From positions 1 through 64,000 of the forward strand of contig NZ_JACHIH010000022.1 of the NCBI RefSeq assembly GCF_014203125.1: a DNA stretch of 64,000 bases. The letters run 5' to 3'. The notes under the pieces were generated by a model. That model made no database searches. It saw only the letters and a program-made list of their open reading frames with translations, and was not told the DNA's origin. This stretch comes from Rhodopseudomonas rhenobacensis (GTDB taxonomy: Bacteria; Pseudomonadota; Alphaproteobacteria; Rhizobiales; Xanthobacteraceae). The translations under genes were made by a program, and so were the position numbers. Positions 31,425 through 61,160 of the stretch are shown here, in pieces (positions within the stretch are counted from its first letter, which is position 1; the number at the start of each line of letters is the position of its first letter).

Positions 31425-32162
31425 ATGACCAGCGACGCTCTGCCAGAAGTCTTTGAATCTTCTTCCCGATCGCCCTGTAACAATCTGGGCCAGAAGGTTT
31501 CATGCAAAGCGAAGGCGGCGCGATGGGCCTCCAGCGAGGCCGCGCTCTACGATCCAAAGGGTGAGCGGAAATATCTCAACCGCGATGAGCGCGCCCGTGT
31601 CCTCAACGTCATGGACACGCTCGATCCCGCCAAATCGCTGTTCGCTCTCGTGCTGGCATGGACGGGAGCCCGTGTGAGTGAAGTGCTCGCGCTCACCCCG
31701 GCATCTTTCCAGCTCGACAGCAGCGTGGTGACGATCGTCACGCTCAAGCGGCGCAAGCCGAGTATTCGTGAAGTGCCCATCCCGCCCAGCCTCATGGCGA
31801 AGCTGGAACGCGTCTTCGCGCTCCGGCGCATGCAGCAATCGGGCGTGGTCGTGCAACGGCTTTGGCCATGGTGCCGCGTGACGGCATGGCGGCTGATCAA
31901 GAAGGTGATGGCGCTGGCGCAGGTGACCGGGCGCGGTGCGTGCCCGCGCGGCCTGCGCCACGGGTTCGGTGTCGGCACGCTTCAGTCCGGCGTGCCGTTG
32001 AATCTCATCCAGCGCTGGCTCGGGCACGCGCGCCTGACAACCACCGCCATCTATGCCGCCGCGTGCGGGCCAGAGGAGTTAGCCTTCGCCCGTCAGTTCT
32101 GGCGCAGTATTCCAGCATCCAAGCCGGCACCACCAACCCTGCGGCCTCAGCCATGCGCATGA
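31425..32162 (+). CDS. Short tyrosine-recombinase-like protein
   Basis: The 245-residue protein carries the catalytic half of phage-type integrases without a full arm-binding domain. ALVLAWTGARVSEVLAL holds the first catalytic arginine. RGLRHGFGVGTLQSG contains the second arginine, with arginine where XerC/D have the first histidine of HxxR. WLGHARLTTTAIYA contains the last histidine and the tyrosine nucleophile. Such stand-alone proteins occur in conjugative elements and may resolve dimers. An XRE regulator gene overlaps its 3' end. It is unlikely to be the element's integrase given the serine recombinase at the tRNA. Confidence 0.82.
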   Translation: MTSDALPEVFESSSRSPCNNLGQKVSCKAKAARWASSEAALYDPKGERKYLNRDERARVLNVMDTLDPAKSLFALVLAWTGARVSEVLALTPASFQLDSSVVTIVTLKRRKPSIREVPIPPSLMAKLERVFALRRMQQSGVVVQRLWPWCRVTAWRLIKKVMALAQVTGRGACPRGLRHGFGVGTLQSGVPLNLIQRWLGHARLTTTAIYAAACGPEELAFARQFWRSIPASKPAPPTLRPQPCA

Positions 32163-32416
32163 TGCGCAAAGCCTCACCCGTCGATCTCGTCATCGGCGCG
32201 AATATTCAGTTTCACCGGCTGAGGCGCCGGTTGTCGCGGCAGGCTCTTGGCCAAGCGGTTGGAACGAGCGCCCAGCAGATCGAAAAATACGAGATCGGCA
32301 AGAACCGCGTCTCGGCCAGCCGTCTGTATGATATCGCGCAAGTGCTCGGCCTGACCTTCGACATGTTCTTTCAGGCTCCCGCGCTCAATGCACGGCGGGC
32401 CCGGTCGTCTACTTAA
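32153..32416 (+). CDS. XRE-family helix-turn-helix regulator
   Basis: The product is 87 residues, consisting of a lambda-Cro type helix-turn-helix: ANIQFHRLRRRLSRQALGQ, VGTSAQQIEKYEIGKNRVS and ASRLYDIAQVLGL. Three in-frame ATGs (32153, 32159, 32162) overlap the recombinase stop codon; any may be used. Such proteins repress island operons or form antitoxin-like switches. The gene is last in a two-gene unit with the recombinase-like protein. Confidence 0.85.
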   Translation: MRMMRKASPVDLVIGANIQFHRLRRRLSRQALGQAVGTSAQQIEKYEIGKNRVSASRLYDIAQVLGLTFDMFFQAPALNARRARSST

Positions 32417-32534: not shown

Positions 32535-35500
32535 TTGCGGGGGATCATTCCAGTTGAACAACCCTCCAAAATCCGCGACCATCGTGGCGGCTGGGAACTT
32601 CTTCTTGGATCGCCTTTGACCATCACTGACGACGATACTGCCCAAGATCGCTTGGCGGCACAGCGGCTTACGGGCCTCCTCGACTATGTCGAGGCGCTCG
32701 TTAAGCTCGACGAGCGCGTCGCCACGAGGCTATCGCAGCACAAATTGGCCGACGGCTCGCAATTCATACTCCACCAACACGAACTCGCCGGCCTGCCGGG
32801 CATCAAGAGCGACTTTGCCGACAACGATGGGCCGATCTGGCTGCGCGTTCAGCGGCTCCAGCGCTCCACGCCGCCCGAAGTCGGACAAGACTGCGCCGAA
32901 TGGATCGATATTTCCAACGATCCCACCCGAGCGCCGGAAATCCGCGAAACCGTGCATCACCGGCTTCCCGAAGCGGAGCAGCAGCGTCTTGTGGCGGAAG
33001 GCAAGGCGCGCGCGGAGGACTGCATCCGCTCGCTGAAGATCGCCAAGTCCGATCCACAGCACGAGATTTTTTTTGATGTGATGTTACGGCTCGAAGACCG
33101 GCCGGAGTTACGGGCGACGCTGGAATCCTATTGCGCAGGGCCGTGGGCGCGCTGGTCCGAACAGGAGAAGCCGCGGCGGCGCTCGATCGCCATTTACCAG
33201 CGTCTCTTTGAAATCGCGCAGCGTTTGCTCCAATCCGGGGGAGCGGAGTCGACCGAACTTGTCTGGGGCATCGGGCTATCCCGCTGGAACCGGGCGGGTG
33301 AGCTTATCGACCTGCCGATGATCGAATGCGGCGTCGAAATTGAGATCGCCGAGACCGGCAACGCGGAAATCACAGTGCGGCCGCGCAGCGGGGTATCCCG
33401 CGTCGAACTCCGGCCTTTCGAAAAGCTCGCGGGCCCGCGATTTGTGCTCGCAGAAGACGCCGCACGGCGTTGTATCCGCTTGCTTGAAGGCCCGGATAGC
33501 GAGGGCATTTCCCCGTTCCGGCAGGAGAGCTTTGAGCCGATCTTGAAGACCTGCGGCAACCAGCTTGATCCGGAAGGCCGTTACCTTCCCGACCACAAGT
33601 CGCTCCCGGCGGCCGATCCCGTCCCGGAAGCCGAAGGAGAATTCCTTAACGTCAGTGACCGCTACGTCCTCTATGCCCGCAGACGTTCCAGCAACTCAGT
33701 TCTCCGCGACATCGATCAGTTGAAGGACGCGGTTGCCGCTGAAGGGGAGGAGCCCGCCAAGATAGAAGGCTCGACCCGGACGCTCGTCCTGGGCCCGTCG
33801 GACGGCATCGATGACACGTTCGCACCGCTCGGCGACCGGCTCGGCGCTGCCGATGGGCTGCCGGTCGATAGCGACGAGGAGCCGGTGGATGCCGATCACG
33901 GCGATCTCTTCTTCCCCAAGGCCTTCAACGACGAGCAGGTCGAGATCATCCGCCGCCTGGAAAAGTCCGAAGGCCTTGTGGTGCAGGGGCCACCCGGCAC
34001 CGGAAAAACGCATACCATCGCCAATATCATCAGCCACATGCTTGCGACCGGACGCCGCGTGCTGGTGGTCTCCCACGGCGAGACCGCGCTGCGCGTCATT
34101 CAGGAGCAGCTTCCGGAAGGTGTGCGCGATCTTGCGATCAGCGTCACGACATCCGAACGTGAGGGTCTAAAGCAGGTCGAGAAGGCGATCGGGCTCATGC
34201 TCGGGATCGTCAACACGATCGACACGAACCGCAGCCGTCAGGTCAAACTAATCCGCGATCTTGAATCCGGTATCGCCGCCAACCGGAAACGGCTCGCCGA
34301 GATTGATGAGCAACTCGCCGCGCTCGCCGCACCGCACATGTCTTCCGTGCCGGGCTCCAAGCAGTCCCCTTATGAGGCCGCCAAGCGCCTCGTGGAAAAC
34401 CGCGACCGTCATGCGTGGTTCACGGACCGGCCCAGCCGGCCGCCTAGCGATGGGGGTGTGAGCCGCGCCGACATGGACGCGCTTTTCGGCGCGCGCAAGT
34501 CCGTCAAGGATTGTCTTAAGTACCTTGGCGAACGCTTGCCCAGTCCTGCCAATCTGCCTGATCCCGAGACCGTGCGCGGCTGGCACCAGGACCTGATCGC
34601 GGCCAAAGACCTCACGGCGGACACGGAAGCGCTGGAACCCCTGACCCGGCGCGCGATTGCGAAACTCGGCCTTGAGGGGGCTGATAAGCTTGCAAGCGGC
34701 CTCAAGGGCCTCGCCTCCCGGATGGAGGCGCTCAAGCGCCACGCATGGGCATGGGAGTTGGCGGAAGATCTCAGGGCCGATGCCGCGGCGGCGCATCGCC
34801 TTGACCCGCTCGCACGGTCATTTCTTGCCGATGCGCAAGACTTGATTGCGCGGCGCGCGGCTTTTCTCGCGCGGCCGGTTGAGCTGCCGAAGGAATTGCC
34901 ACCGGAAAAGCAGCTCGCGCAAATTCTGGATACCCTCATTGCAGGCAAGAACCCGTTCGGGATGTTGGCATTCGCAACGAAAGCCCATCAGCCTACCTTT
35001 GAGGCCATCCGGGTGGCGGGGGTCAGGGCGGCCGTGCCGCATGATTGGCAGCATGTGCGCGTGTTTATTGGCTTCTGCACCGAGGTGGAGAGCCTTTCGG
35101 CACGCTGGGATGCCTTGCGCCCCGAATTGTCGGCTCCCGCCGAGATCACGTTCGGGCTTCCGGCCCTTTCATCGCTCGCGCATCTCGCCGATACGCTGAA
35201 CGCAGCACTTATTGCCGTCCCAACGGAACTCAAGAATCTCTCACGGCAACTCGCGGTAGCGCTCGCCAACGACGCGGAAGCGAACGCGGTCCTGCAACAC
35301 CCCGCGGCGATCACTTCGTTTGCGGATGGCTTATCGCGGCACGTATCCTCGGTGCGGCTTTCCGCCGTGACCCGGAACGTCGCGGAAACGGCTGCGCAGT
35401 TTGACGACAGCGGAAGCGACATTGCCGGCTACGCCAAACAAATTCTCAACGAATTGATTGGAACGCCTACACTCGACGCCGGGCAACTGACGCAGGTCTG

Positions 35501-37640
35501 GCATAGCCTGCGTGCCCGGCTCGCGCATGTACGATCGTTGGAGCCGCTCTACGACCGCATCACGGCGACGACGCGCGCGATCGCGCTGGCCGGCGCGCCG
35601 GTCTGGGCCGAGCGTCTCCGTACCGAAGCCGCCCAGGACGACGGCGATCCGGCGGCACCGGCGGACTGGGCGGACGCGTGGGAATGGGCCACCCAGCTCA
35701 CCTATCTTGAGAGGATCGGCGCCACGGCTGATCTCGCCCATCTTCACCGCGAGCGTATCGAAACGGAGAAAGCTTTACGCGAGAGCTTTGCCACGCTCGT
35801 CAAGGAGCGGACCTTCTACAATCTTGCCGCCACCATGAAGGGCTCCGCCAAATCTGCGTTGCAGGGCTTTGCCAACATCATTCGTAGGCTTGGCCCCGGC
35901 ACTGGTACCGGACAGCGCGCCGTTCTGCACCGGCAGAATGCACGGCAGGCGATGCAGGGATGCTATGACGCCGTGCCCTGCTGGATCATGCCCGCTTGGC
36001 GAGTCTCGGAGCAGCTTCCGGCAAAGCTCGGCAGCTTCGATCTCGTGATTCTGGACGAAGCTTCGCAATCGGACGCCCGGGAGCTGCCCGCCTTGCTTCG
36101 CGGCAAGAAGATCCTCGTCGTCGGTGACGACCGGCAGGTGAGCCCAAGCTCAGCATTCCTCTCGATCGCCAATATCGCGCGGTTGCGCCACAACTTCCTC
36201 AGCGAATTCCCATTCAGGGCGGAGGTCGAGCCGGGTGCGTCCATCTATGACCTTGCGCGCGTCATGTTCCCCGCAAAGTTTGTGATGTTGAAAGAACACT
36301 TCCGCTGCGTCGAGCCGATCATCCGCTTCTCGATGCAGTTCTATAACGAAAATCTGATTCCGCTCCGCGTGCCCAAGCCGAGCGAAAGGCTCGATCCACC
36401 CCTGATCGACATCTATGTCGAAGACGGGCAGCGCCGCGGCAAGTCTAAGGTCAATCCGGCCGAAGCCGAGGTCATCGTTTCCGAAATCGAGAAGATCGTC
36501 GAGGCAACGCCGCCCGCGGCCGACGGAGTCTCGCCGCCCGCTCGATCGATCGGCGTCATCTCGCTGATCGGGGCCGACCAGGCCCTCCACATTCAGAAAC
36601 TGCTCATGGAGCGCATCGGCGAAGCCGCCATGGTGCGGCACCGTGTCGTATGCGGCGACAGCGCGACCTTGCAGGGCGACGAGCGCGACATCGTATTTGT
36701 TTCGATGGTCGCAGACCGCACGCGCAAACAGTCGCAGACCTCGATCCAGTACCAGCAGCGCTTCAACGTGGCCCTCTCGCGCGCGCGCGACCGCATGGTC
36801 CTGGTGCGCTCGGTCCGCGAGGAGGATTTAAACCCCAAGGATCTCAAGGCGAGGGTCATTGCTCATTTCCGCGCCCCGATGCCGAAGACGGAAAGCCCAA
36901 CCGCCGAGCTGATCGATCTTTGTCAGTCGGAATTCGAAAAAGCGATCTTCCGGCCGCTCGTCGAGCGGGGCTACTACGTGACGCCGCAAGTCGGGTCCGT
37001 CGGCTTTTCGATCGACATGGTCGTGGAAGGAGAGGGCGGAAGGCGGCTTGCGATCGAGTGCGACGGCGACCGCTATCACGGTCCGGATCGGTGGGCCGAC
37101 GACATGCGCCGTCAGCGAATTCTGGAGCGGGTGGGCTGGACGTTCTGGCGCTGCTTCGGATCGAATTTTAGCCTCGATCCCGAGGGGGTGCTCCAAGACC
37201 TTTTCGCCACGCTTGAGCGGATGAAGATCACTCCGGTCGAACATGAAGCCGTGGGGCGTGGCTTCTCCGAACACCGCACCGAGAGGGCCAAACCCGCCGA
37301 AGCGTCTCCCGGCACATCCTCATCCGGCAGCGACGTCATTGCACCGTTGGTATTGCCGGGCGATCAAGAAGATGCGGAAGCGCAGGAGCCGGAGACCCAG
37401 CTCCGAGAAGGCGACCGCGTTGTCATTCGCTACCTGGACGTCGAGCCGTCGCGGCCCGAATTTTACACGATCAGCAATACGCATGATGACCGGATCAACG
37501 GGTTTCTGCTTGTAACATCCCCGCTTGGACAGGCGCTCGCCGCGGGAAGCGCCGGGGACGAACTCACATTCCTTGAGGCCGGGAAGGAGCGCGCATTCCT
37601 TTTTGTCTCGCTGGAATCGGCCTCCGCGCAAGCCGCCTGA
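32535..37640 (+). CDS. Giant SF1 helicase with C-terminal Vsr/MTES_1575-like nuclease domain, candidate defence protein
   Basis: The 1,701-residue protein has a ~450-residue N-terminal region of unknown fold. A superfamily 1 helicase follows, with its first half at Walker A GPPGTGKTHT near residue 485. A long helical insertion lies between about 560 and 1130. The second half has Walker B ILDEASQSD near 1172, GDDRQVSPSSA, and motif VI NVALSRARDRMVLV near 1411. The C-terminal nuclease has FSIDMVVEGEGGRRLAIECD and GDRYHG near 1490-1512 and GWTFWRCFGSNF, matching Vsr-like restriction enzymes. Helicase-Vsr fusions are known in phage-defence proteins. The start (TTG 32535) is weakly supported. The coupled gene at 37646 is a likely partner. 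Confidence 0.82.
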   Translation: MRGIIPVEQPSKIRDHRGGWELLLGSPLTITDDDTAQDRLAAQRLTGLLDYVEALVKLDERVATRLSQHKLADGSQFILHQHELAGLPGIKSDFADNDGPIWLRVQRLQRSTPPEVGQDCAEWIDISNDPTRAPEIRETVHHRLPEAEQQRLVAEGKARAEDCIRSLKIAKSDPQHEIFFDVMLRLEDRPELRATLESYCAGPWARWSEQEKPRRRSIAIYQRLFEIAQRLLQSGGAESTELVWGIGLSRWNRAGELIDLPMIECGVEIEIAETGNAEITVRPRSGVSRVELRPFEKLAGPRFVLAEDAARRCIRLLEGPDSEGISPFRQESFEPILKTCGNQLDPEGRYLPDHKSLPAADPVPEAEGEFLNVSDRYVLYARRRSSNSVLRDIDQLKDAVAAEGEEPAKIEGSTRTLVLGPSDGIDDTFAPLGDRLGAADGLPVDSDEEPVDADHGDLFFPKAFNDEQVEIIRRLEKSEGLVVQGPPGTGKTHTIANIISHMLATGRRVLVVSHGETALRVIQEQLPEGVRDLAISVTTSEREGLKQVEKAIGLMLGIVNTIDTNRSRQVKLIRDLESGIAANRKRLAEIDEQLAALAAPHMSSVPGSKQSPYEAAKRLVENRDRHAWFTDRPSRPPSDGGVSRADMDALFGARKSVKDCLKYLGERLPSPANLPDPETVRGWHQDLIAAKDLTADTEALEPLTRRAIAKLGLEGADKLASGLKGLASRMEALKRHAWAWELAEDLRADAAAAHRLDPLARSFLADAQDLIARRAAFLARPVELPKELPPEKQLAQILDTLIAGKNPFGMLAFATKAHQPTFEAIRVAGVRAAVPHDWQHVRVFIGFCTEVESLSARWDALRPELSAPAEITFGLPALSSLAHLADTLNAALIAVPTELKNLSRQLAVALANDAEANAVLQHPAAITSFADGLSRHVSSVRLSAVTRNVAETAAQFDDSGSDIAGYAKQILNELIGTPTLDAGQLTQVWHSLRARLAHVRSLEPLYDRITATTRAIALAGAPVWAERLRTEAAQDDGDPAAPADWADAWEWATQLTYLERIGATADLAHLHRERIETEKALRESFATLVKERTFYNLAATMKGSAKSALQGFANIIRRLGPGTGTGQRAVLHRQNARQAMQGCYDAVPCWIMPAWRVSEQLPAKLGSFDLVILDEASQSDARELPALLRGKKILVVGDDRQVSPSSAFLSIANIARLRHNFLSEFPFRAEVEPGASIYDLARVMFPAKFVMLKEHFRCVEPIIRFSMQFYNENLIPLRVPKPSERLDPPLIDIYVEDGQRRGKSKVNPAEAEVIVSEIEKIVEATPPAADGVSPPARSIGVISLIGADQALHIQKLLMERIGEAAMVRHRVVCGDSATLQGDERDIVFVSMVADRTRKQSQTSIQYQQRFNVALSRARDRMVLVRSVREEDLNPKDLKARVIAHFRAPMPKTESPTAELIDLCQSEFEKAIFRPLVERGYYVTPQVGSVGFSIDMVVEGEGGRRLAIECDGDRYHGPDRWADDMRRQRILERVGWTFWRCFGSNFSLDPEGVLQDLFATLERMKITPVEHEAVGRGFSEHRTERAKPAEASPGTSSSGSDVIAPLVLPGDQEDAEAQEPETQLREGDRVVIRYLDVEPSRPEFYTISNTHDDRINGFLLVTSPLGQALAAGSAGDELTFLEAGKERAFLFVSLESASAQAA

Positions 37641-37645
37641 TTGCC

Positions 37646-38584
37646 ATGGGCCTCTTCGGTTCACTCTTCGGGAAAAAGGACGCCGGTGCAGAGGCCGCGT
37701 CGGATGCCGCCGACGGTAGCTTTCTTTCCGACTTCATCAACATTCCGTCGCGTGACTTCTTCGGGCCTTTCGCCAAATCGCCCAACGGGCGCTACACCCT
37801 TGCATGGTGTGACGGCGGGCCCGACCAGTCGCGCAAGGGGCGTTATTTCCTCCTCGACCGCGGACGCATCGTCGTCGAGGGCGGCATGCCGCGTCCGAAC
37901 GGTGGTCACATCGTCGATAGCGGCGTCTTCATCCTCAACGACTGGGGTTCGATTGAAACGCTGAGCGGGACCTTTACGGCGTTCGATCCGGACGGCACCG
38001 TGCGTTTCAGACGATCCCTCCACGCCAACCTCTTCAACAACGGCCTCTCGAATGACGGGCGCCTTGCAGTCTGCCAAATGGCGAACGCGCCGCATGAGGA
38101 CGGAGGTAAGCTGTTTGTGTTCGACCTTGCGGCTGGCGCGCAGATCGCTTCCTGGTATCCGGAATCCGGTTGGGCCAACTCCTATGAATTTCCGGAGGAC
38201 GGCCAGACCATCCGGCTCGTCTACCGCGACCGTGGCGCGTTCGCCTATGGCGTCGATGGCACTTTCATCGATCGTATGAGGTGGCTGGCCGTAGGCCTGC
38301 AGGTTGGCGACCTCGGCATCGTGCAGACGTTGCTCGCGGAAACCAACAACCAACCGACGCTCGCTCTCGTCGAGCAGCTTCTCGGCGGCATTGACGTTGC
38401 GCTCGCATCGTCCACCTATAACACTCCAAAATGGCGGGCGATTGCGTTCAAACTTCGCGGCTTATGCCTTGAGGCCATCGCGGAGGTGGGACAAGCGCTG
38501 GTCGCTTACGATCAAGCCCTCGCGCTCGATCCCAAGGTCGGCGTCAAACGAAAGGCCGACCAGCTCAGGAAGGTCGTTCCGTAA
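37646..38584 (+). CDS. Partner protein of the giant helicase-nuclease
   Basis: The 312-residue protein starts 5 bp after the helicase stop. It begins MGLFGSLFGKKDAGAEAASD, a short basic amphipathic start. A beta-rich middle follows with propeller-like strands (PNGRYTLAWCDGGPDQSRKG, GRLAVCQMANAPHEDGGKLF). The helical C-terminus looks TPR-like (LEAIAEVGQALVAYDQALAL). No enzymatic motif is seen. The tight spacing argues for a functional pair with the helicase, possibly as sensor, inhibitor or substrate adaptor. Confidence 0.75.
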   Translation: MGLFGSLFGKKDAGAEAASDAADGSFLSDFINIPSRDFFGPFAKSPNGRYTLAWCDGGPDQSRKGRYFLLDRGRIVVEGGMPRPNGGHIVDSGVFILNDWGSIETLSGTFTAFDPDGTVRFRRSLHANLFNNGLSNDGRLAVCQMANAPHEDGGKLFVFDLAAGAQIASWYPESGWANSYEFPEDGQTIRLVYRDRGAFAYGVDGTFIDRMRWLAVGLQVGDLGIVQTLLAETNNQPTLALVEQLLGGIDVALASSTYNTPKWRAIAFKLRGLCLEAIAEVGQALVAYDQALALDPKVGVKRKADQLRKVVP

Positions 38585-40457: not shown

Positions 40458-40811
40458 TGGTTGCTCTGCGAGCCTGTTCAACCCGCAGAGACGCCAAACC
40501 AGCCGGGAGGGCCGCCGACCAAGGCGAACCTTCCCGGCGTCGGGGGAGGCGTGGCGCACGCCCCTCGGCGCCCGCAAACCTGCGCCCGGCCGGACCCGTT
40601 TTCTGCGCGAGAACGCGCGGCCATGGATCGTGCCTTGAAAGCGTATGAGATGCTGGATTTCAACAGGGAGTTGGATAGGGCAGTTTGGTGGATGGTGATA
40701 GAGGGTACACGGCGCCTACCATCGAAAGCCAACGACGCCAACCGATCCCAACTCGCCCCCAACGGCAAAAAGCATCTCCGCGCCGGATGTTTGCGGACAC
40801 AAAGAGATTGA
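40457..40811 (+). pseudogene. Frameshifted module B copy, 3' end overwritten by the STAND gene
   Basis: From the coupled ATG at 40457 the frame agrees with the intact module B (AAA CCx GCC GGG, residues KPAG). Between the shared words GGGAGGCGT and CGGCCGGAC this copy has 34 bases where the intact copy at 26266-26583 has 36. The conserved RPDxxSAxERxAMDRALxAY then appears in the frame of 40461-40811. The conserved part ends near 40685, and the rest of that frame lies antisense to the 3' end of the STAND gene (40716). It is therefore a decayed copy. Confidence 0.7.
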
Positions 40812-43800
40812 CCTTGGGGTGTCCTCGATCGTGACAGACCGGATAAGTCGACCCGTTACGCCGCTCCAAAGCTTCATTGTTCCGTTAGCGCCGTAGCTTA
40901 GAATCGCCGGCGCTCTTCCCGAAATCTCAATCCATATGGCGCCAATCAACCACGCACCATGATCAATCGGGTCAAAGGCGGGTTGATTAACGGACAAATC
41001 CCAGACAAATATCGTTCCGTCGTGGCGCCAACCAAAAACACGGCTCGTCTGCGACAACCACTTAACGCCCGAGAGGTCCTTACCGTCAAATAGTGTGGAT
41101 GACGCGCGATAGTATTCTTTCGCTTGGCTGTCGAATACCCGTATCAAGCCATTGCCGCACGCCATAAGGTTGGCTGTACCGCGCTCATTGCACAAGACAC
41201 CAAGCACGGATCTATCGTATGTTTCGAATAGCGACGCTTTGAGAATTCCGGTCCGAGCATCGCTAAATTTGATCACACCGTCGCGCGAAAATGTCACAAG
41301 CGTCGACCCAGCAGGGCTATCGAGCAATTTGACGGCGCGGATGTCGTCATCGTGCTGAATTGGTTCAAACCAGTATCTACAATCCTCCACACCACAACAG
41401 GTTACGCTTCGATCGCTACGCACGATTAAACCGCTGCCCCGTCCGCTATCGTGGATACGACCTTCGTAGCAAATCCAAGAATCAAACTCAAGAGATTGAG
41501 AAAATTGCTGCCCGCTCAGAGTCCATCCTTTAATTAAGCCGTCGCTACCTCCGGTTAAGACCCCAGACGACCCGTCGATCAGTTCAACGGGCAACGCGAA
41601 CCAAATCTCGCCCTCATGCGCGTTTTGTCGAATAACTTCGCGGCCGGTTCCAACATCCCAGATGGACCACGATCCTCCATGGGTCCAGCTCAGGATTCCG
41701 TGTGTCGTGGGAATTGCATCCACCAAGCCTTCAGAATGCTCTATCGGGGAAAATCTCAGGTCGCCAGTGCTCGCATTCATAAGCCGCATCGTTGAGTCTC
41801 GCGATAGAATCAGAATTGAAGGCTCACTGTGATCGCGCCCGATTACCCAATCGACTTTGATTATGCGCTTCGTATGCCGCGGTACCGCTTGAATGCCTTT
41901 GGCTTTTACATCGAAGACGCGAACGCCACCATCGGATGAGCTCGTTATGATAGCGGGCGTTCCGCGTTCGAAAGGAGCCCACCGTGCCCTCCTGATATGG
42001 TGATGCTGGGGGGCGAGATGCCATTGCATCTTGCCATCCTTTGCATCGTGAAGCGAAACTTCATCATCGACATTAAAAAGAATGAACGAAGAACAATGCC
42101 CCGCACTTTCGATTGGTGTGATGGATATGACACCACCTTCATCATGTATCGTAAGCTCCTCACCGGTGTTCACGGTGATGAGCGTTATGGTTCCATCCAG
42201 ATACCACACAAGGAGTCGTGGCTCTCCGTGGGTGTCTCGTATCCACAACGCATACGAGACCGGCGGTTGGCATCGCTGCCACGCCTTTACGGACTTGCCG
42301 GTTTCCGCATCCAAAATGGTGATCCGCTCACCCGCGCTGGCTGTAGCAAGGATTACAGCCCGATCGCAATAATCGTGAACCCATTCCGCGTGAGTGATTC
42401 CGCCCGGTACGCAGAATATCCGAAGGCTCTTGCCCGTGTCGCGATGCCAGATTCCAGTAACGCAGTCACCAAATTGAGCAAAAATGGACGGGCCGGCTTT
42501 TGGATCATTTACCCACTTGGCGAATGAGACATCACATTCGTAGTGGACTGGATCGAACGCCGTCACTCCTGCTTTTACATGCCAGAGAAATAGTGAACTG
42601 CGCGCATCGTCGGGCTGGTGGGGCGTGGGTGGTTCCGCCCATTCCTCGTCGACAAAGAGGCCGTGGGCTTGACTGATTGACCTCGATCTGCGTCTCCGCC
42701 ACTCGGGTTGGCTTTCGGACCAACTGAGGATCAATGGTTCAGCCGTGTCGCCTTCTATCCACTCCGCATGCTGGACTGGCCCATCGTGGATCAGCGGTTC
42801 GACTAAGGGTTTCCCGTCGATCGCCGACCACACACGCACCGTCCAATCGGCGCTCCAACTCACGATAACGGGGCCCGAGGTTTGCGAGTGTATGAACGTC
42901 GCGCCGCGCAATGAACCGGCGTGTTTCAGCGCCTCGAAGCGCAAGTGGCCGGTTTGCGCGCTTGAAAACATAACAGTACCATCAAGCGACCAACTTAAGA
43001 TCGATGATCCTTGAGGTGCGCGTTCAATCCACTCAGCCCCACCGACGTAACCGCGATGAGTAATGGCCTCTATGAGTGGCAATCCGCTCGATGCGTCCCA
43101 AAGCTGCACGGAGCCATCCTCCGCCCAGCTTAAAATAGTGGGTGTCGCATTCTCGCACGCGATGAGTGTTGCATCCGATACCGAAGCCCGGTGGAAGGAT
43201 GTAATACGAAGGCTTGAGAATTTCTCCAGGAGGAAGGGAAATTGCGCGAAGAAGTAGCCATGATCCTGACGACGGATCGTCGATGAAACGAGTTGATCCC
43301 ACATTGCATCGTTGTCTGGCGGCGCGCGAGCTGTAATCTGGAAACCAAGCTGGCTGCGATCAACCGACAGAATACCGACCGTTTTTCGGAGGTGGCCTAG
43401 ATACGGCTCTGATACCAGTCCGTCTGCCTCGACAAGCTGGCTCCAGAACAAAGTAACGTTTCCTTGCTCTGGCCGTTCGAGCTTGTCCGGAACGTCGAGG
43501 GCAGCCCGAAGCACCCTAAAATCACTTAGCCATTGTGACAGTAGTCGCGTTCCTAACTCTTGATCTGAAATGCGAACGAAATGGAAGGTGGCGCGGCGGA
43601 TCAAATAGTCGCCGAGGTGGCCCAGTTCATCCGGATCTTTATCGTACCATTCCAATTTCGGAATCAAACGAAGACGGGCGTCTTCTTCCACAAACTCAAT
43701 TTTTCCGTCCAAATCTCCATCAATCGATCCGGTAAGCAGCCCCATTGCTCGCAGAAATTCGCGGTGGCGATCGCCTAGCGTCTCTCCGCCCAGCTTCTTA

Positions 43801-45662
43801 CCGAGAAGTTCACGGATCAGGATCCGATATAGATCGTGAAGCGTGTAACGGCCGGGCTCGTTGGTGGGCCTGAGTAGGGAGTTACGCGCAAAAATGTGAA
43901 AAGGCCGCTTATGAGCGGCCATCGCAGCTGGTAGTGGGGGGCAATTTGGCCGCTCGCCATACTGCCAGAAGACATCGAAGACCTGCTCGTCCAAAGAGTC
44001 GCCAGGATGGGCAATCGCCAAGTCTAGATAACGTTCCTGTAGCTCGGAAGTTAGCGTGGACCATGCAAAGGCGAGCGCGTTCAGGACATCGCGTTGGCGA
44101 TGCGGGACGACTGTTGTGAGGTCGGCTTGAGGATCGAAAGATAGAATGTCTGTTGGACGCGAGGCGATCGTATCCGTGGCGCGATCCCAGAACCGCGTGA
44201 GATTGCGGATGTCCTGCCTAGAAGCCGAAGCAACCGCAGCCAGTGCAAGCGGATGACCTTGGAGAAATGAAATGGCCTTCTCAATGGCGCACTTTACTTT
44301 GGCGTCTTTTTCGATTTCGTCCTCTCGAAATTTTTGGATCGCCTCAACTGCCGCAGAAGACGTCAGCTCATCGTAAGCGTCAACCGACCACGCAGCGACA
44401 ATGTCGAGACACAATGAGGGGCTGTAAGGCCGATCATTGCCGCCGAGTTCATAGTCGAGTTCTTTGCCGAGAAAAGACAGCGAATTCGTTTGCGACGACG
44501 TGATAATGAACTTGGATCGCGCAGCAGGAATTTCGTTCGGAAGCAGCTTGAAGAGCGGTTCAATGACGGCGAATGCAAGATGGAAGTCCAGCACGTCGTC
44601 GATGGCGATAACGATGTTGGAGAGTCCAAAGCGAAGGATCGATGCGACCCTCGACAAGGTGGGCATATCGGGAATCGAATGCCCGCAATTCTGCACTACC
44701 GACAGGAAATAGTCCCAGCTAACGTCTTCTGCGAAGTTGTTGAGGAAGCTCTCTCGATTACGATCAACTCCGTCGGCGTATTCAGATTTCCGGCGTCCAA
44801 AATGCGCTTTGATAAGATCGCTCGCGGCCTGTTTTTTGCTGTCGCCGAGACCGTTTCCTATAGCAAGCGATGCAAGTGTAAAAATCAGTGTTGAGCATAA
44901 TCCCACATAGTCGCTAGTTTGTAGCGACCTGTTTCGGCTCACGGCTGCTTCAAGAAACGGGCGTGCGTCGATTTCCAACACACGCCGTTCGCTATCTCGC
45001 AGTTGCGCCAGGACCTGTCGGAGCAGCAGGCTCTTTCCGCTGCCTGACATTCCGCAAATGCTTACCGCACTAACTTGATTGAGCCGTGCGATTACCTCAT
45101 CAACTTCTGAATCGCGGCGAACAATCCGCCACTCTGGATCAGAGAGCAAAGCCTCACTCTTCGGAAAAGCTCCCCCCGTCTCGTCTATCGGAAGGGAAGC
45201 TTGCACAATCGTCTGTTCAAGAAACGCCTTCCACGTCGAAGTATTCGCGTCCTTAGGCCAATCGTCCTTGGAGCAGATGCCAAGCTGCACAAGAGCAGGA
45301 AGCATGCCTTCGAGCCAGTCCGGCGTGACTCTTCCGCGCACACCGAGGAGTTGGCGCGCGCCCCCAAGGTTTAGAGCCAGATGCCAAGCGGCGCTTTTGG
45401 TAGGGTCAATCCTTTGCGGCACGGGCTGACTTGTCCGAGAAATCAGCCTCTTAAGGGTATCCACTGCTGCGGGAACATTGTCGCTTGCCCGCTCGACAAG
45501 GGCGGCGATGAGGCTTTTCGTTAGATCGGCCAGCTCGGGGTCGCCCTTCACTGCCTTTACATCCTTCAGCTTAACGCAGCTAATGGGTTCCGACTTTGGA
45601 TCGCCGTCCCACGCCGCCACTCCGATGAAAGTAATTTCGGGCTTGCAGAGCCGCGAAGTCAA
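40716..45662 (-). CDS. STAND-family NTPase with WD40-like propeller, candidate NLR-type defence protein
   Basis: The 1,648-residue protein has an N-terminal ~180-residue domain of unknown type. An NB-ARC/STAND NTPase follows, with P-loop GMSGSGKS at 204-211, Walker B IVIAIDDVLDF near 350, and KFIITSSQTNS as the sensor region. Helical repeats follow to about 840. The C-terminal ~800 residues contain about fifteen beta-propeller blades recognisable by SWSxDG-TVxxW-type endings (LSWAEDGSVQLWDASSG, VSWSADWTVRVWSA, LSYGANGTMKLWSG). Propeller-bearing STAND proteins act as pathogen sensors that oligomerise and trigger an effector. The gene is AT-richer than the backbone and seems inserted between module B and a repeat gene. 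The start is a weak TTG. Confidence 0.85.
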   Translation of the reverse strand: MTSRLCKPEITFIGVAAWDGDPKSEPISCVKLKDVKAVKGDPELADLTKSLIAALVERASDNVPAAVDTLKRLISRTSQPVPQRIDPTKSAAWHLALNLGGARQLLGVRGRVTPDWLEGMLPALVQLGICSKDDWPKDANTSTWKAFLEQTIVQASLPIDETGGAFPKSEALLSDPEWRIVRRDSEVDEVIARLNQVSAVSICGMSGSGKSLLLRQVLAQLRDSERRVLEIDARPFLEAAVSRNRSLQTSDYVGLCSTLIFTLASLAIGNGLGDSKKQAASDLIKAHFGRRKSEYADGVDRNRESFLNNFAEDVSWDYFLSVVQNCGHSIPDMPTLSRVASILRFGLSNIVIAIDDVLDFHLAFAVIEPLFKLLPNEIPAARSKFIITSSQTNSLSFLGKELDYELGGNDRPYSPSLCLDIVAAWSVDAYDELTSSAAVEAIQKFREDEIEKDAKVKCAIEKAISFLQGHPLALAAVASASRQDIRNLTRFWDRATDTIASRPTDILSFDPQADLTTVVPHRQRDVLNALAFAWSTLTSELQERYLDLAIAHPGDSLDEQVFDVFWQYGERPNCPPLPAAMAAHKRPFHIFARNSLLRPTNEPGRYTLHDLYRILIRELLGKKLGGETLGDRHREFLRAMGLLTGSIDGDLDGKIEFVEEDARLRLIPKLEWYDKDPDELGHLGDYLIRRATFHFVRISDQELGTRLLSQWLSDFRVLRAALDVPDKLERPEQGNVTLFWSQLVEADGLVSEPYLGHLRKTVGILSVDRSQLGFQITARAPPDNDAMWDQLVSSTIRRQDHGYFFAQFPFLLEKFSSLRITSFHRASVSDATLIACENATPTILSWAEDGSVQLWDASSGLPLIEAITHRGYVGGAEWIERAPQGSSILSWSLDGTVMFSSAQTGHLRFEALKHAGSLRGATFIHSQTSGPVIVSWSADWTVRVWSAIDGKPLVEPLIHDGPVQHAEWIEGDTAEPLILSWSESQPEWRRRRSRSISQAHGLFVDEEWAEPPTPHQPDDARSSLFLWHVKAGVTAFDPVHYECDVSFAKWVNDPKAGPSIFAQFGDCVTGIWHRDTGKSLRIFCVPGGITHAEWVHDYCDRAVILATASAGERITILDAETGKSVKAWQRCQPPVSYALWIRDTHGEPRLLVWYLDGTITLITVNTGEELTIHDEGGVISITPIESAGHCSSFILFNVDDEVSLHDAKDGKMQWHLAPQHHHIRRARWAPFERGTPAIITSSSDGGVRVFDVKAKGIQAVPRHTKRIIKVDWVIGRDHSEPSILILSRDSTMRLMNASTGDLRFSPIEHSEGLVDAIPTTHGILSWTHGGSWSIWDVGTGREVIRQNAHEGEIWFALPVELIDGSSGVLTGGSDGLIKGWTLSGQQFSQSLEFDSWICYEGRIHDSGRGSGLIVRSDRSVTCCGVEDCRYWFEPIQHDDDIRAVKLLDSPAGSTLVTFSRDGVIKFSDARTGILKASLFETYDRSVLGVLCNERGTANLMACGNGLIRVFDSQAKEYYRASSTLFDGKDLSGVKWLSQTSRVFGWRHDGTIFVWDLSVNQPAFDPIDHGAWLIGAIWIEISGRAPAILSYGANGTMKLWSGVTGRLIRSVTIEDTPRSISLCPQTSGAEMLFAVGGELGSVGVVGFRW

Positions 45663-47443: not shown

Positions 47444-47607
47444 AGCGCTCGGGAAAATCACGAGTGAAAAGTCGAACAGGCCGGACGCCGTCGCGCGCGG
47501 AATGGCTGGAACTGACGGCACCGTTCCGCATGGGTGGAGCGTTGCGTGTCATGCGCTACTTCAGCGCGCGTGTGGCCGCAGCAAAGTCAGCCAAATTGAA
47601 GAGGTAG
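47440..47607 (+). CDS. 55-residue basic protein
   Basis: From the ATG at 47440 (overlapping the preceding stop as ATGA) the frame encodes MKRSGKSRVKSRTGRTPSRA and about 35 further residues rich in lysine and arginine, ending SAKLKR. It is too short for most annotation thresholds, but the exact ATGA overlap and six-base gap to the next start support it. It could bind nucleic acid or acidic lipids. Confidence 0.55.
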   Translation: MKRSGKSRVKSRTGRTPSRAEWLELTAPFRMGGALRVMRYFSARVAAAKSAKLKR

Positions 47608-47612
47608 CCGCC

Positions 47613-49217
47613 ATGTCCATGCTCGATGGATTGCTGGATCGCCCGACGCACCGTCTCACCGCATGGCAACGCTTCCAGGCGAAAATGGTCGGTATGGATA
47701 CCGATCTGCTGGAGCGCTCGCCCGAGCGGGACGTGCACGAGGGCTCGCGTTGCTTCTGGCTTTTGATTCTGGTCGCGGCATATCAATGTGTTGTGTTTGC
47801 CAGTCTCGCCCACGTTCTTCTCGCCGAACCTGGAAAGCTGCATCCGGAATTCTTCCTGCTTGCCGCCCTACCTGCGATTCTCGTCGGCGTGCTTGAGGCT
47901 GCGCTTGTTATCGCGCCATCGTATTTGAGCAGCGGCATTCATACGCTGTCCCAAGCAGGGCTGGAGATGCCCAATCCATGGGGCCGCCGCGCGAAGAAGG
48001 CGATGGCGATCACGTTGCGTCTCACCTTTGCGCTCGCCTGCGCGCAGTTAGGTTCGATCGCAATCACGCTGCCGCTGCTGGGAAAGGACACGACCGCGGC
48101 CCTCGACCAGGCCTATCGGCAGAGCAATGCCATCTTGTTTGAGCAAGCGGATGCGCGGCACACCGAGACGTTACGGCGAAACAACGAAGAACTCGACCAG
48201 CTTCATGCGCAACTGTCGGACCTCAAGACCGAGGAAGAGCGCTGGCGCCGGGCCAGTATCGATCCGACCACCAGCGATCCAGAACTCGTGGCGCTGCTGG
48301 CGCGCGTCGAGCAGTTGCGGTCCGTCAAGGGCGCGGCGGATCAGGAGCTTGCCGCAGCGGAGCAGTTTGCCAACGACGAGTTAATGGGAAAGCAATCTGC
48401 GCCCGGCAATAGTGGGCGAATGGGCTACGGGCCGGTCCGCCGCGCCGCCGACGAAGCGGTGGCGAACGCCAGGCGAAAAGTCGAAGCGGCGGCCAGTGAT
48501 TTGCGCGAAGCCGAAGCGCGCCTTGCGCCGCTGCGCGAGAGACTGGCGGCGTCCGCGCAGGGCAAATCCAGCGGTGCGGAAACGCGCCTCGCCGAAGTCA
48601 CGCGCGAGCGGGATGCGTTGGACGAGCGGGCGGCGGTACTGGACGAACGCGTGCGCACGCTTATTGGCGACCGCGAGCGCCTGATCCGCGAGGCAGTTGA
48701 AGCCGATCCGGGCCATGTGAAAAAGGAAGACGGCATCCTGGCGCGCGTCCACGCCGTGCGCAACATCGTGGAGTCCGACAGTGCGGCGTTCGTGATCGTG
48801 CTGCTGTTCGATGTTGTATTGTTCTTCATCGAGGTCGCCGTGCTTCTCTCGAAGTCATTAGCAGCGCCGACAACCTATGCCACGTTGCTGGCCTATGCGC
48901 ATGTCGTCGGCGCTCATAAAATCGTGCAGGAGATCGCCAGGACGTTGAACGATGTCGAAGCGGCCCCCGAGAAAGAGGAGCCTCCATCGCCGGCCATCCA
49001 GGAGGATCGGAAGGAAAATCCCGTCCCCCTCGAAAATGGTGAGACGAAACCGGCGGAAGAAGCCGATCTCGGTGTCGGTCCGGCGCACGGCGGCACCAAA
49101 CCGCCTGAAGCCGATCTGCCCAAGCGTGGCCGGGGGCGGCCTCCGGGCTCTCCCAATCGCCCTCGCGCCGCAGACCTTCCATCCGAAACGGCCGAGGGCG
49201 AGAAAACGCCGCCGTGA
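47613..49217 (+). CDS. DUF4407-like membrane protein with long coiled coil and AT-hook
   Basis: The 534-residue protein has membrane helices near 42-66 (LLILVAAYQCVVFASLA), 78-102 and 133-153. A long charged coiled coil (about 180-385) with many ERE/RRK heptads follows, then a further hydrophobic pair (AFVIVLLFDVVLFFIEVAVL). The acidic proline-rich tail contains an AT-hook-like PKRGRGRPPGSPNR near 512. DUF4407 proteins share two membrane parts split by a coiled coil. The tail could tether DNA at the membrane. GAAGAGG precedes the ATG at 47613. It ends the overlapping operon. Confidence 0.78.
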   Translation: MSMLDGLLDRPTHRLTAWQRFQAKMVGMDTDLLERSPERDVHEGSRCFWLLILVAAYQCVVFASLAHVLLAEPGKLHPEFFLLAALPAILVGVLEAALVIAPSYLSSGIHTLSQAGLEMPNPWGRRAKKAMAITLRLTFALACAQLGSIAITLPLLGKDTTAALDQAYRQSNAILFEQADARHTETLRRNNEELDQLHAQLSDLKTEEERWRRASIDPTTSDPELVALLARVEQLRSVKGAADQELAAAEQFANDELMGKQSAPGNSGRMGYGPVRRAADEAVANARRKVEAAASDLREAEARLAPLRERLAASAQGKSSGAETRLAEVTRERDALDERAAVLDERVRTLIGDRERLIREAVEADPGHVKKEDGILARVHAVRNIVESDSAAFVIVLLFDVVLFFIEVAVLLSKSLAAPTTYATLLAYAHVVGAHKIVQEIARTLNDVEAAPEKEEPPSPAIQEDRKENPVPLENGETKPAEEADLGVGPAHGGTKPPEADLPKRGRGRPPGSPNRPRAADLPSETAEGEKTPP

Positions 49218-49420
49218 GGCAGGCTTCACGCCTTTGGCGTAGGCCTGCAGTGCCCGGGTGAAGCGGCCTTTCCGGCTGTCAATAGGACTGCGAATCACCC
49301 GAACTTCTCCTATTATTGTCCGTTCACTCCTTTTGCCCCCCCCTTTATTATGCATCCATTGCTGCATGCCGGCGCTCACCGTCGGCACGGAAATGGAAGG
49401 TGTCGCGACACGAGGCGGCC

Positions 49421-51169
49421 ATGTACATCGATTGCCTTCGCCTGCAACGGTTCCGCTCATGCGCGGATGTCACGGTGCGTTTTCACCGCGAACTGACGGT
49501 CCTTGTCGGCGAGAACAATGGCGGCAAATCAAACATCGTCGACGCGCTGCGGCTCCTGATCCTGCCGCTCAGCGGCCGCCGGGACCGTTATCCGGAGGAC
49601 GATGATTTGCGGCGCGGCAGCGCCGATACGCACTATGCACTCGAAGGCCGGTTCGCCGGGCTGGGCGACACCATGAAGGGATTGCTTATCTCTGCCGTGC
49701 CGGACCCAACCGCCGACGTGGCGGTATTCGGAATGCGCTACCAGACGCGGATCGCCGGCACGCTCCGGGGGCGCGCGTCGTCTTGGGCAGGGAAATTCGA
49801 GACGGCCGAGCCCGAAAGCGGTTCTACCGACCTTATTCGCCATGTCTATTTGCCGCCCCTGCGCGATGCCAAGCAGGCGCTGGGCACTGGCAGCGCGACG
49901 CGCATTGCGGCGCTGCTGCAGCACTTTTTGCAGACCGGCGAGGAGCAGCAATTCCTTACGCACGTCCAGCGCACCGGCGCCCCGCATCGCGTGTTGACGG
50001 CGATCAATACGGATATCGAGACCGCGCTCGGTGATCTAACACGCGGCGCGCGGCCGCAGACCGCCTCGCTTGCCTTCACCGCCGAGGCGCTCACGGACGT
50101 AGCGCGCGATCTTCGCTTCCGGCTCGCCGACCTCGGCCTACCTCCAGAGGACATAAAATCGTCGGGCTTGGGATATGCGAATCTCCTTTATATGGCGACT
50201 GTTGTGGTCGAACTCGCCAAGGCACGGGAGGCGGACTTAACGCTCTTCCTCGTCGAGGAGCCAGAGGCGCACCTTCATCCGCAATTGCAGATGCTGGTGC
50301 TGGATTTCTTGCTCGATCAGGCAAAAAAATCGCTTACGCAAGAGATCACGCCCGGCCAACCGGAAGGCCGCATCCAGGTCATCGTCACTACGCACTCTCC
50401 CAATCTCACAGCGTGGGTCTCGCCCGAGCACCTCGTGGTCATACGTTCGGCTCAGGAGACCGGCGTGACGCCGCCGGTCATGCAGACTGTTTCCATCCCG
50501 ATCAGCGGCTTGGGTCTCGATCCCCGGATGGTTCAGAAGGTGAGCCGCTATCTCGATGTCACGCGCTCGGCGCTACTGTTCGGCAACCGCGCCTTGCTCG
50601 TCGAGGGGATCGCCGAAGCGCTTCTGATGCCGGTCATCGCCCGGCATTGCGTTCTCAACACCAATCCCCACGCGTTGCAGCGATTTCGCGGCGCGGTGGT
50701 AGTGGCGATCGACGGCGTGGATTTCGCGCCTTATGTCCATATCCTCCTTCATCCTTGCGAGGGCGCGACGATTGCCGACCGCGTTGTCGTCGTCACCGAC
50801 ACCGATCCGCACTCACCGGGAAACCGCAAGGCCGATCTCGATGCGCGTGCGGCGGAATGGGGGGTGGCCGAACGGCTGAACGTTCTTACCAATGCCGTCA
50901 CGCTCGAACACGAGCTGTTTAGCGCGGGCAACGGCGCCTTACTGCGCGAGGTGTTCCTCGCTCTGCACCCCTTGTCGGAAGCCCGCTGGGTTGCGGAGGT
51001 GGATGGCGTTGCGGCTGAGGCGCGACCCGCGGCATTCGTGCAGCTTCTCAAAGGGACCACCACGCGGAAGGGCGACTTTGCCCAACAGCTTGCCGAACGC
51101 ATCGTCGCCGGTTCGGCTTTCACGGTGCCGGCGTATTTGCGCGATGCCATCCTTGCGGTGGCAGGATGA
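49421..51169 (+). CDS. gajA: Gabija GajA-like OLD-family ATPase-nuclease
   Basis: The 582-residue protein begins MYIDCLRLQRFRSCADVTVR with Walker A GENNGGKSN at 30-38, an ABC-like signature region, and FLVEEPEAHLHPQL near 275 (Walker B and D-loop). THSPNL follows as the H-loop. The C-terminal TOPRIM has LLVEGIAEALLMP near 393 and VVVTDTDPHSPGNRK near 457, the Glu and DxD residues needed to cut DNA. Length matches known GajA (about 578). In Gabija, GajA is a nucleotide-gated DNA nicking enzyme. The adjacent overlapping UvrD-like gene completes the pair. The ATG at 49421 fits the family start. Confidence 0.88.
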   Translation: MYIDCLRLQRFRSCADVTVRFHRELTVLVGENNGGKSNIVDALRLLILPLSGRRDRYPEDDDLRRGSADTHYALEGRFAGLGDTMKGLLISAVPDPTADVAVFGMRYQTRIAGTLRGRASSWAGKFETAEPESGSTDLIRHVYLPPLRDAKQALGTGSATRIAALLQHFLQTGEEQQFLTHVQRTGAPHRVLTAINTDIETALGDLTRGARPQTASLAFTAEALTDVARDLRFRLADLGLPPEDIKSSGLGYANLLYMATVVVELAKAREADLTLFLVEEPEAHLHPQLQMLVLDFLLDQAKKSLTQEITPGQPEGRIQVIVTTHSPNLTAWVSPEHLVVIRSAQETGVTPPVMQTVSIPISGLGLDPRMVQKVSRYLDVTRSALLFGNRALLVEGIAEALLMPVIARHCVLNTNPHALQRFRGAVVVAIDGVDFAPYVHILLHPCEGATIADRVVVVTDTDPHSPGNRKADLDARAAEWGVAERLNVLTNAVTLEHELFSAGNGALLREVFLALHPLSEARWVAEVDGVAAEARPAAFVQLLKGTTTRKGDFAQQLAERIVAGSAFTVPAYLRDAILAVAG

Positions 51170-57496: not shown

Positions 57497-57508
57497 CCCC
57501 GTCGTCCC
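57483..57508. terminator. Hairpin between convergent operons
   Basis: GGGACGAC and GTCGTCCC are perfect 8-bp arms around a ten-base loop. It spans the gap between the plus-strand parB operon and the minus-strand Abi operon. There is no T-run, so it may act as a weak bidirectional terminator only. Confidence 0.45.
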
Positions 57509-58326
57509 TATTGTTGATACCGCAGACGGCGCAAGAAGGCCCGCGCGGTCACGAGGATGATGTGCAGGCGGAATGTGCTGTGATCCTCATCGGACAGGCC
57601 GGGATGCGATCCATCTGTATGGAGCATCTTGAATAGCCCGTTGATATAATTCTTCCCGTCTTGAGTCCACTCGTTGCGGTCTTCGGCCAGAAAATTGATC
57701 TTGGCGAGCAGTGCGCGGCGGTTCTCCGATGTCAGGTGCGCCGTCTTGTCGGCACCCTCGCAATGCCGCGCGATGTCGTCAAAAAGCCCCTCAAGGAAGG
57801 TGCGAAATTGCGCATTCGCCGCCGCCCAGTCGCCCCGCGCATGCGCTTCGATGCCTTGACCGAGATGACCGAGTGGCTCGGAGAAGCCAAAGTGCTTGAG
57901 CAATTCATGCACTTCGTCGTCCACCGCAGGCAGCCCAAGTTCCTCGGGCAACGCCACCCGCAATGCCGGGCGATCCCGTTCGTCGAACGAAACCACGTAG
58001 CCATCTCGCGCCAGTCCCCGCGCGAATGCGATTTCCGATTCCTGCCCGGGCTCCGGACGCATCAATTGGACGGCTTCACGAATAAACGCCTCCGCCAGCG
58101 ACATGCTGCCTTCCAGCGTATCGACTTGATCCCCCGGCCGCTGCACGACGATGCGGCCCAGCGTATCGGCTTTCTTCGACACGCTGATGCCGGTGTCGGA
58201 GGTGATTTCGTTCTCAAGGCCGAGACGAAGCACCATGTGATTGAATGGCGCGTGGTGCTTCAGGTTCGCATCGAGAAACGCGACGGCGGCAATGATCGTC
58301 GGGCGGGTGAAGGGAACGGCGCTCAT
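57508..58326 (-). CDS. Third gene of the AbiE operon, Abi_C-like protein
   Basis: The 272-residue protein has a C-terminal segment TDGSHPGLSDEDHSTFRLHI followed by ILVTARAFLRRLRYQ, which resembles the Abi_C domain of abortive-infection proteins. The N-terminal half (HHAPFNHMVLRLGLENEIT) is not assigned. Its ATG lies one base after the stop of the AbiEii-like gene (TGACATG), so it is translated with it. AbiE systems normally have two genes, so this could be an extension or an independent effector sharing the promoter. Confidence 0.72.
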   Translation of the reverse strand: MSAVPFTRPTIIAAVAFLDANLKHHAPFNHMVLRLGLENEITSDTGISVSKKADTLGRIVVQRPGDQVDTLEGSMSLAEAFIREAVQLMRPEPGQESEIAFARGLARDGYVVSFDERDRPALRVALPEELGLPAVDDEVHELLKHFGFSEPLGHLGQGIEAHARGDWAAANAQFRTFLEGLFDDIARHCEGADKTAHLTSENRRALLAKINFLAEDRNEWTQDGKNYINGLFKMLHTDGSHPGLSDEDHSTFRLHIILVTARAFLRRLRYQQ

Positions 58327-61134: not shown

Positions 61135-61160
61135 TCTCGAACAACTGAAAGGAAAACATC

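Follow-up and report, generated by a model that had tools for sequence, protein, structure and literature searches.

A giant helicase-nuclease and a propeller protein with a terminase-like tail in a defense-rich region of Rhodopseudomonas rhenobacensis

The MTES_1575 giants of a HEPN-domain survey, proteins that join a superfamily 1 (SF1) helicase to a Vsr-family nuclease, are proposed there to act on invading DNA (PMC3710099). In defense collections, the known systems closest to the helicase analyzed here are PDC-S37, a candidate single-gene helicase-nuclease of PADLOC, and Hhe and ProA, two anti-phage helicase-nuclease proteins of NCBIfam. Here we analyze a stretch of 64,000 nucleotides from Rhodopseudomonas rhenobacensis (NZ_JACHIH010000022.1, positions 1 to 64,000; hereafter the window) in which a gene for a giant helicase-nuclease is directly followed by one for a small protein, P0002, that combines a beta-propeller with a tail of tetratricopeptide repeats (TPRs). 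The two genes had been put forward as a candidate two-gene defense system. Our analysis makes it moderately probable that they are instead independent defense modules lying side by side, P0002 being a plug-in sensor or adaptor. With the helicase, a known candidate kind gains a divergent clade that ends in a Gre-type C-terminus; of the two genes, that of the P0002 family is the more interesting and the part worth following up.

The best PADLOC profile for the helicase is PDC-S37 (E 4.4e-73, 244.8 bits, judged without PADLOC's own acceptance thresholds). The match is split in two, and its best stretch pairs residues 928-1577, which comprise the nuclease together with the C-terminal half of the helicase, with profile positions 708-1354 of 1550; a further difference is the GreA/GreB-type C-terminus added in the clade of the window helicase. 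From its sequence we classify the protein as a divergent member of the PDC-S37 kind, and this match, together with the defense-rich region, agrees with the earlier view that a helicase-Vsr fusion is a known phage-defense-type gene. Hhe and ProA resemble the protein over its helicase and nuclease parts, but membership in either was rejected: the scores are 186.6 bits against a cut-off of 2000 for Hhe (NF042953) and 274.8 bits against a curated cut-off of 1500 for ProA (NF058533), and Pfam finds neither DUF4011 nor DUF3320. A ProA match above the cut-off occurs in 3 of 61 same-family genomes. Like the window helicase, the giants of the HEPN survey are described as lacking accompanying modification genes; unlike it, they carry HEPN, transglutaminase and winged helix-turn-helix domains, none of which Pfam finds here (PMC3710099). 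For P0002 the nearest parallel is one of genomic behavior. BrxR-type WYL regulators are a single accessory family adjoining many different defense and toxin-antitoxin systems (PMC9122601). P0002 relatives likewise lie beside unlike systems; BrxR, however, is a transcriptional regulator, whereas P0002 consists of a propeller and a TPR tail, with no DNA-binding domain found.

Conservation of the helicase-P0002 pair

Both open reading frames (ORFs) and their 5-nucleotide spacing on the same strand were confirmed by the ORF calls, Pfam domains and conserved motifs. The original prediction went further, proposing a tightly coupled two-gene system and naming absence of the partner beside helicase homologs among the findings that would speak against it. 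We compared 12 other helicase loci, five from genomes (L026-L029, L075) and seven from among 43 plasmid records with helicase matches (L064-L070); the partial matches G106, G112, G118 and G191 lie outside this comparison. The helicase frame is long and open at 11 of these loci, and L075 has two in-frame stops. None of the 12 has a P0002 relative (tblastn E<=0.1, profile E<=1), and none of 37 P0002-family loci has a full-length helicase relative, although a DUF4011-type helicase-nuclease lies about 2 kb downstream at one of them (L050). In 198 same-family genomes, R. rhenobacensis included, the P0002 family occurs in three and the helicase, counting matches that start near residue 40 and reach at least residue 1692, in four, with a divergent fifth in G048 (L029, 27%); both genes occur together only in R. 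rhenobacensis. Wider samples, again counting this genome, gave the P0002 family in 2 of 397 genomes (order) and 1 of 385 (class) and the helicase in 2 of 397; because the first look of the wider P0002 searches scores at most five candidates per genome, members may stay hidden by TPR noise. On these counts (0/12 and 0/37) we reject a fixed two-gene system as a conserved unit. The partner is missing beside homologs as far as tested, the nearest P0002 relatives are partnered elsewhere, and the pair looks like a local arrangement.

P0002-family loci and their neighboring genes

An AlphaFold2 (AF2) model of P0002, built on an alignment of 26 family members, has a predicted local distance difference test (pLDDT) score of 91.0 and a predicted template modeling score of 0.82, with strands at residues 25-202 and helices at 210-310. 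The best VIA-align match is the Swd1 propeller (Z 14.9, root-mean-square deviation 3.1 over 159 aligned residues), and four- and five-blade fragments (6r5y, 6r60) are also found. Foldseek agrees on the WD40 kind, with template modeling scores of only about 0.28-0.42 by query, which are low because the P0002 propeller is smaller than those it matches; against viral structures it gives general WD40-type matches. The tail matches TPRs. Since Pfam, PADLOC and NCBIfam yield just weak TPR matches, no enzyme domain is recognized, and the picture of a propeller/TPR-like partner without enzymatic motifs holds. We found no publication that describes the family, judging by titles and the openings of abstracts, which is not proof that it is unpublished; passages of three further papers contain nothing on it (PMC10250203, PMC8565338, PMC10907252).

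The 37 family loci comprise 23 of 26 genome-contig loci, eight viral contigs, five plasmids and genome locus L074. Left out were L055, itself a P2-type small terminase, and the gene remnants L053 and L054, which are open only at the TPR-GVKR end. The set includes loci on short contigs that offer little flanking sequence (for example L048, L049, L052 and L061), and there are near copies within it (L040/L044, L010/L011, L012/L063, L057/L058/L060). At ten loci, a toxin, defense-type ATPase or helicase, or WYL-like gene lies directly upstream on the same strand within 144 nucleotides: AbiEii at four (L030, L040, L044 and L009; three after merging L040/L044), HipA at two (L038, L039), an SMC/AAA gene at two (L034, L037), a ResIII helicase at L033 and a WYL-like gene at L031, where a SNF2 helicase follows downstream. 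All ten fall among the 14 known alphaproteobacterial loci. The gene overlaps AbiEii by 4 nucleotides in L009, L040 and L044. The two closest relatives of P0002 (61%) differ in setting, L030 lying behind AbiEii and L031 between the WYL-like gene and the SNF2 helicase. No such upstream gene was recognized at the 23 loci outside these 14, a group that includes the eight viral contigs, whose host is unknown; most upstream ORFs there were compared with 16 reference proteins only and few with family libraries.

There are also near misses. A dense island in Caballeronia (L050, 6167-18643) carries an AbiEi relative, AbiEii, a PDC-S06-like AAA gene, a P0002 relative and a DUF4011-MTES_1575-DUF3320 helicase; the P0002 relative stands three ORFs behind AbiEii with the AAA gene between. 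At L033 an AbiEi relative lies three ORFs downstream on the opposite strand, and TmtA, ThsB and dGTPase matches are among the genes listed before L043, L046 and L049. On one viral contig (L057, 9872-12014) the P0002 relative sits beside DUF1367 and RecA-dependent-nuclease-type genes, surroundings that we take to be a usual site for accessory phage genes.

The DNA around family members has cassette-like boundaries. P0002, L030 and L031 form one clade (support 100/98) with three different partner genes, and the AbiE-linked members occupy separate places in the family tree. In two Sphingomonas loci (L034, L037), identity is 93% over 2.3 kb from about 72 nucleotides before the gene onward; the genes upstream (1307 and 812 residues) have no DNA match, and similarity between their proteins is confined to short pieces (best E 8e-4 over 71 residues), which makes this an exchange between different ATPase genes. 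L041 and L046 are 87% identical in DNA between -53 nucleotides and a point immediately behind the stop codon; the sequences next to this stretch differ, and further shared pieces lie farther downstream. Five sphingomonad members (L034, L037, L039, L040, L044), sitting behind SMC/AAA, HipA or AbiEii genes, are extended at the C-terminus by an apparent VRR-NUC nuclease, marked by the motif GWPDL...EVK and assigned by Pfam in L039 (E 1.8e-8), on which alone Pfam was run, and by motif in the other four. A sixth, L038, is altered in this region, and the plasmid copy L009 ends early near an IS21 element. Judged by these sequences, this unnamed family behaves as a mobile accessory cassette.

These observations lead us to favor, as moderately probable, the reading in which the helicase-nuclease and P0002 are independent modules, a reading that draws on the anatomy of the two proteins, the cassette-like boundaries, the differing partners of close relatives, the lack of pair conservation and the similarity of the P0002 tail described below. 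The helicase-nuclease would be a modification-independent or accessory DNA-degrading effector like PDC-S37 which, to go by its domains, would load onto foreign or replicating DNA, translocate and cut by means of its Vsr-type nuclease. P0002 would be a plug-in sensor or adaptor whose small propeller and terminase-like TPR tail bind other proteins. It would spread as a gene-sized cassette that inserts behind very different toxin-antitoxin and defense genes and, we propose, is therefore co-expressed with them, with some sphingomonad relatives bringing their own VRR-NUC effector. We infer from this arrangement that P0002 senses or modulates, that it has binding partners and that either gene may serve in phage defense. 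If this is true, P0002 would represent a component for sensing or coupling that different systems can reuse: a cassette passed among those of the toxin-antitoxin type and those built on ATPases or DNA cutting, in some cases fused to a nuclease.

The same neighborhoods could be read differently. P0002 might modulate the expression or activity of toxins and effectors, as an antitoxin- or chaperone-like third component that restrains the upstream protein until infection. Four of the 37 loci have the family gene directly behind AbiEii and two of the 37 behind HipA; these placements, and the overlaps at three AbiEii genes, fit this idea, and repeated direct adjacency to AbiEii is unlikely by chance given only 17 AbiEii places across 41 related genomes (an argument made with no formal null). 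The upstream genes, however, lack a common domain that one modulator could obviously recognize, and no such partner was recognized at the Pseudomonas and prophage-type loci; we regard this explanation as unlikely, if better placed than those that follow.

Similarity of the P0002 tail to small terminase subunits

Searches against PHROGs connect the P0002 tail, and likewise the tails of three viral-contig relatives out of four (L059 being the exception), with small terminase subunits (E 1.4e-4 to 2.2e-7). Aligned with hhalign to ten P2-type small terminases, the P0002 family gives a probability of 97.3 and an E of 2.7e-11 over 104 columns, and the genome-contig search for the family also retrieved a P2-type small terminase locus (L055, identified by gene order and terminase-profile score). 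P0002 has in common with gpM, the P2-like small terminase, the C-terminal ~50 residues including an AL..LD..GVK motif; unlike gpM it has a propeller instead of the gpM N-terminal part. The full-length organization of gpM was not found, as hhalign sets the helical part of P0002, beginning at residue 217, against gpM residues 91 onward and leaves the propeller unmatched. In a tblastn search of 50,697 phage records, the last ~54 residues retrieved three, of which the two best are one phage under two accessions, at the small terminase gene (E 0.06), and the third is a hypothetical protein (E 7); whole P0002 matched no annotated phage at E<=0.01. When 3,285 ORFs were ranked by a 19-residue profile of the GVK tail, ranks 11-34, behind ten terminases, held 22 family ORFs from 16 distinct loci. 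The TPR-GVK module of P0002 is thus probably related to the C-terminus of P2-type small terminases. The gpM C-terminus is expected to contact the large terminase, and the two tails may share a function.

Taken further, these similarities would make P0002 the founder of a class of effector-agnostic phage-packaging sensors, in which the tail docks on the large terminase and the propeller signals to whichever effector adjoins: the helicase-nuclease here, and elsewhere the toxins AbiEii or HipA, an ATPase of the SMC/AAA or SNF2 type, or a VRR-NUC nuclease fused to the protein itself. Alternatively, P0002 could be a decoy that jams packaging. Binding of the tail to phage terminase, if true, would explain a common infection trigger for unrelated effectors; we consider this proposal slightly more doubtful than that of a modulator.

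A number of observations weigh against P0002 as a plug-in sensor or adaptor with a terminase-like tail. On the terminase profile, a designed consensus TPR of three repeats, the one designed sequence used as a control, sums to 47.4 bits against 35.6 for the best family member; per domain it reaches 14.9 bits, where the 31 family rows range from 14.7 to 34.5 (P0002 itself 21.5), which places 30 of the 31 above it, L035 and L032 barely so and L036 below. Generic TPR similarity accounts for part, though not the whole, of the terminase likeness. The 19-residue tail profile, on which the designed TPR is not listed, is weak, giving P0002 itself 6.9 bits, and family members beyond those 22 ORFs score no higher than background. 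As to partners, no defense or toxin-antitoxin gene was recognized directly upstream at 27 of 37 loci, where the comparison for most upstream ORFs was with the 16 reference proteins alone; 23 of these loci lie outside the known Alphaproteobacteria, which leaves the plug-in idea dependent on a single class. The WYL match at L031 is below the Pfam cut-off (17.0 against 21.8 bits), the swap between L034 and L037 may have stayed within one broad partner class, both upstream proteins being SMC/AAA-type ATPases, and the helicase-P0002 pairing is a single instance. The 5-nucleotide gap in the window and the 4-nucleotide AbiEii overlaps suggest that translation is truly coupled, and such coupling can be a sign of function. 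Finally, we know of no function for any member of the family.

Such coupling would suit a true two-gene defense system in which P0002 is an obligate cofactor of the helicase-nuclease, whether loader, inhibitor or sensor, recently joined to it in this lineage. The shared strand, the 5-nucleotide gap and the lack of an obvious ribosome-binding site before P0002 make coupled translation likely, and a search for RNA structure around the junction found none (z 1.47). Against this stand the absence of P0002 relatives from the 12 other helicase loci and the different partners of its nearest relatives, and we judge such a system improbable, a little more so than a packaging sensor. Least probable of all is that P0002 is a neutral hitchhiker, a stand-alone mobile-element gene with its own role that comes near defense genes through shared islands: relatives do occur in viral contigs or among genes of phages (L056-L063, L012), and two Pseudomonas plasmids carry one with no defense gene adjoining it, but same-strand adjacency, 4-nucleotide overlaps and VRR-NUC fusions suggest selected coupling.

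Helicase domains and the surrounding region

Having favored the independence of the two modules, we return to the helicase, whose parts are listed with the other features of the window in Table 1. Pfam places AAA_11 at residues 464-528 and AAA_12 at 1246-1424, a split SF1 core, and finds MTES_1575 (PF18741) over residues 1467-1560, where the 104.5 bits clear the cut-off of 38.2. The Walker A, Walker B and C-terminal helicase motifs of SF1 proteins are present by Pfam and the alignments. In an alignment of the window helicase with nine full-length relatives (10 rows, 25-47% identity; a 12-row version was also made), there is no variation, or almost none, in the helicase motifs GPPGTGK, DEASQ, GDxxQxSP, QGxER and QRFNVAxSRA or in ID...ECDGD..HG of the nuclease, so the ORF is no chance frame. 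The assignment as an SF1 helicase with a Vsr/MTES_1575-like nuclease therefore stood; the nuclease does not form the very end of the protein, as had been thought, since a degenerate Gre-type domain follows it.

That domain, of the GreA/GreB C-terminal type (PF01272), scores 16.0 bits in the window helicase, below the cut-off of 26.9, and is above it in both relatives scanned (L026, 35.5 bits; L064, 35.3 bits). L027 and L028 align there too, and the region is missing from the alignment in the more distant relatives L065, L067 and L068. The L026 and L064 proteins (5399-6163 and 10105-10923) are helicase-Vsr proteins with this domain at their end, and we speculate that it could dock on RNA polymerase. 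The alignment of most homologs begins at about residue 41, and the true start therefore probably lies downstream of the called TTG (32535), with an in-frame TTG at 32616 as a candidate. The N-terminus (about 420 residues) is kept across homologs and its structure model is poor (pLDDT 61), and a scan of residues 534-1165 gave no Pfam match for the insertion, so both regions remain as unassigned as originally described.

Relatives of the helicase also keep company with defense genes: brxL lies directly upstream at L068 and L069, HsdM adjoins at L027 and GmrSD is 8 nucleotides away at L028. L066 and L070 have annotated methyltransferase and restriction genes, which on our reading are type III restriction-modification. 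A scan of viral contigs, made with a single-sequence query that reaches close relatives only, gave no pattern match to the helicase.

Table 1. Features of the window, in order of position
Feature	Position	Strand	Remarks
Tyrosine recombinase (Phage_integrase), 5' of helicase	31425..32162	+	Possible sign of a mobile island
Small XRE/HTH_3 gene, 5' of helicase	32153..32416	+	Possible regulator
SF1 helicase-nuclease ORF	32535..37640	+	1701 residues as called, TTG start
Conserved N-terminal region, residues ~36-455	32640..33899	+	Alignment; model pLDDT 61
Walker A GPPGTGKT, residues 485-492, split SF1 core	33987..34010	+	
Weakly conserved insertion within helicase, about residues 570-1100	34242..35834	+	Without Pfam match
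C-terminal helicase half, residues 1174-1424	36054..36806	+	DEASQ, GDxxQVSP, QGxERD, QRFNVAxSRAR; AAA_12
MTES_1575/Vsr-type nuclease domain	36933..37214	+	Pfam, alignment
Degenerate GreA/GreB C-terminal-type domain, residues 1616-1679	37380..37571	+	
P0002 ORF	37646..38584	+	312 residues, ATG; 5 nucleotides after helicase stop
P0002 small WD40-like beta-propeller, residues 25-202	37718..38251	+	AF2 model, fold matches
P0002 TPR tail, residues 264-308, GVKR motif	38435..38569	+	Resembles P2-type small terminase
NTPase-WD40 gene	40716..45662	-	1648 residues; weak AAA/NB-ARC/STAND-type NTPase matches, many WD40 propeller matches
DUF4407-domain protein	47502..49217	+	571 residues; immediately 5' of Gabija
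Gabija operon (GajA, GajB)	49316..52950	+	PADLOC E 2.3e-247 (GajA), 1e-191 (GajB); 4-nucleotide overlap
ORF adjoining AbiEii	57508..58326		272 residues; no Pfam match
AbiEii-type nucleotidyltransferase	58328..59260	-	
DUF2958 protein	60956..61726	+	Downstream of AbiEii gene

With the NTPase-WD40 giant, the Gabija operon and the AbiEii gene all downstream of P0002, the region looks like a defense island. No P0002 relative lies alongside the AbiEii gene of the window, the genome having one P0002. The GC content of the NTPase-WD40 gene is 0.543 against 0.617 for the window, and this gene is possibly a recent arrival and a candidate defense gene.

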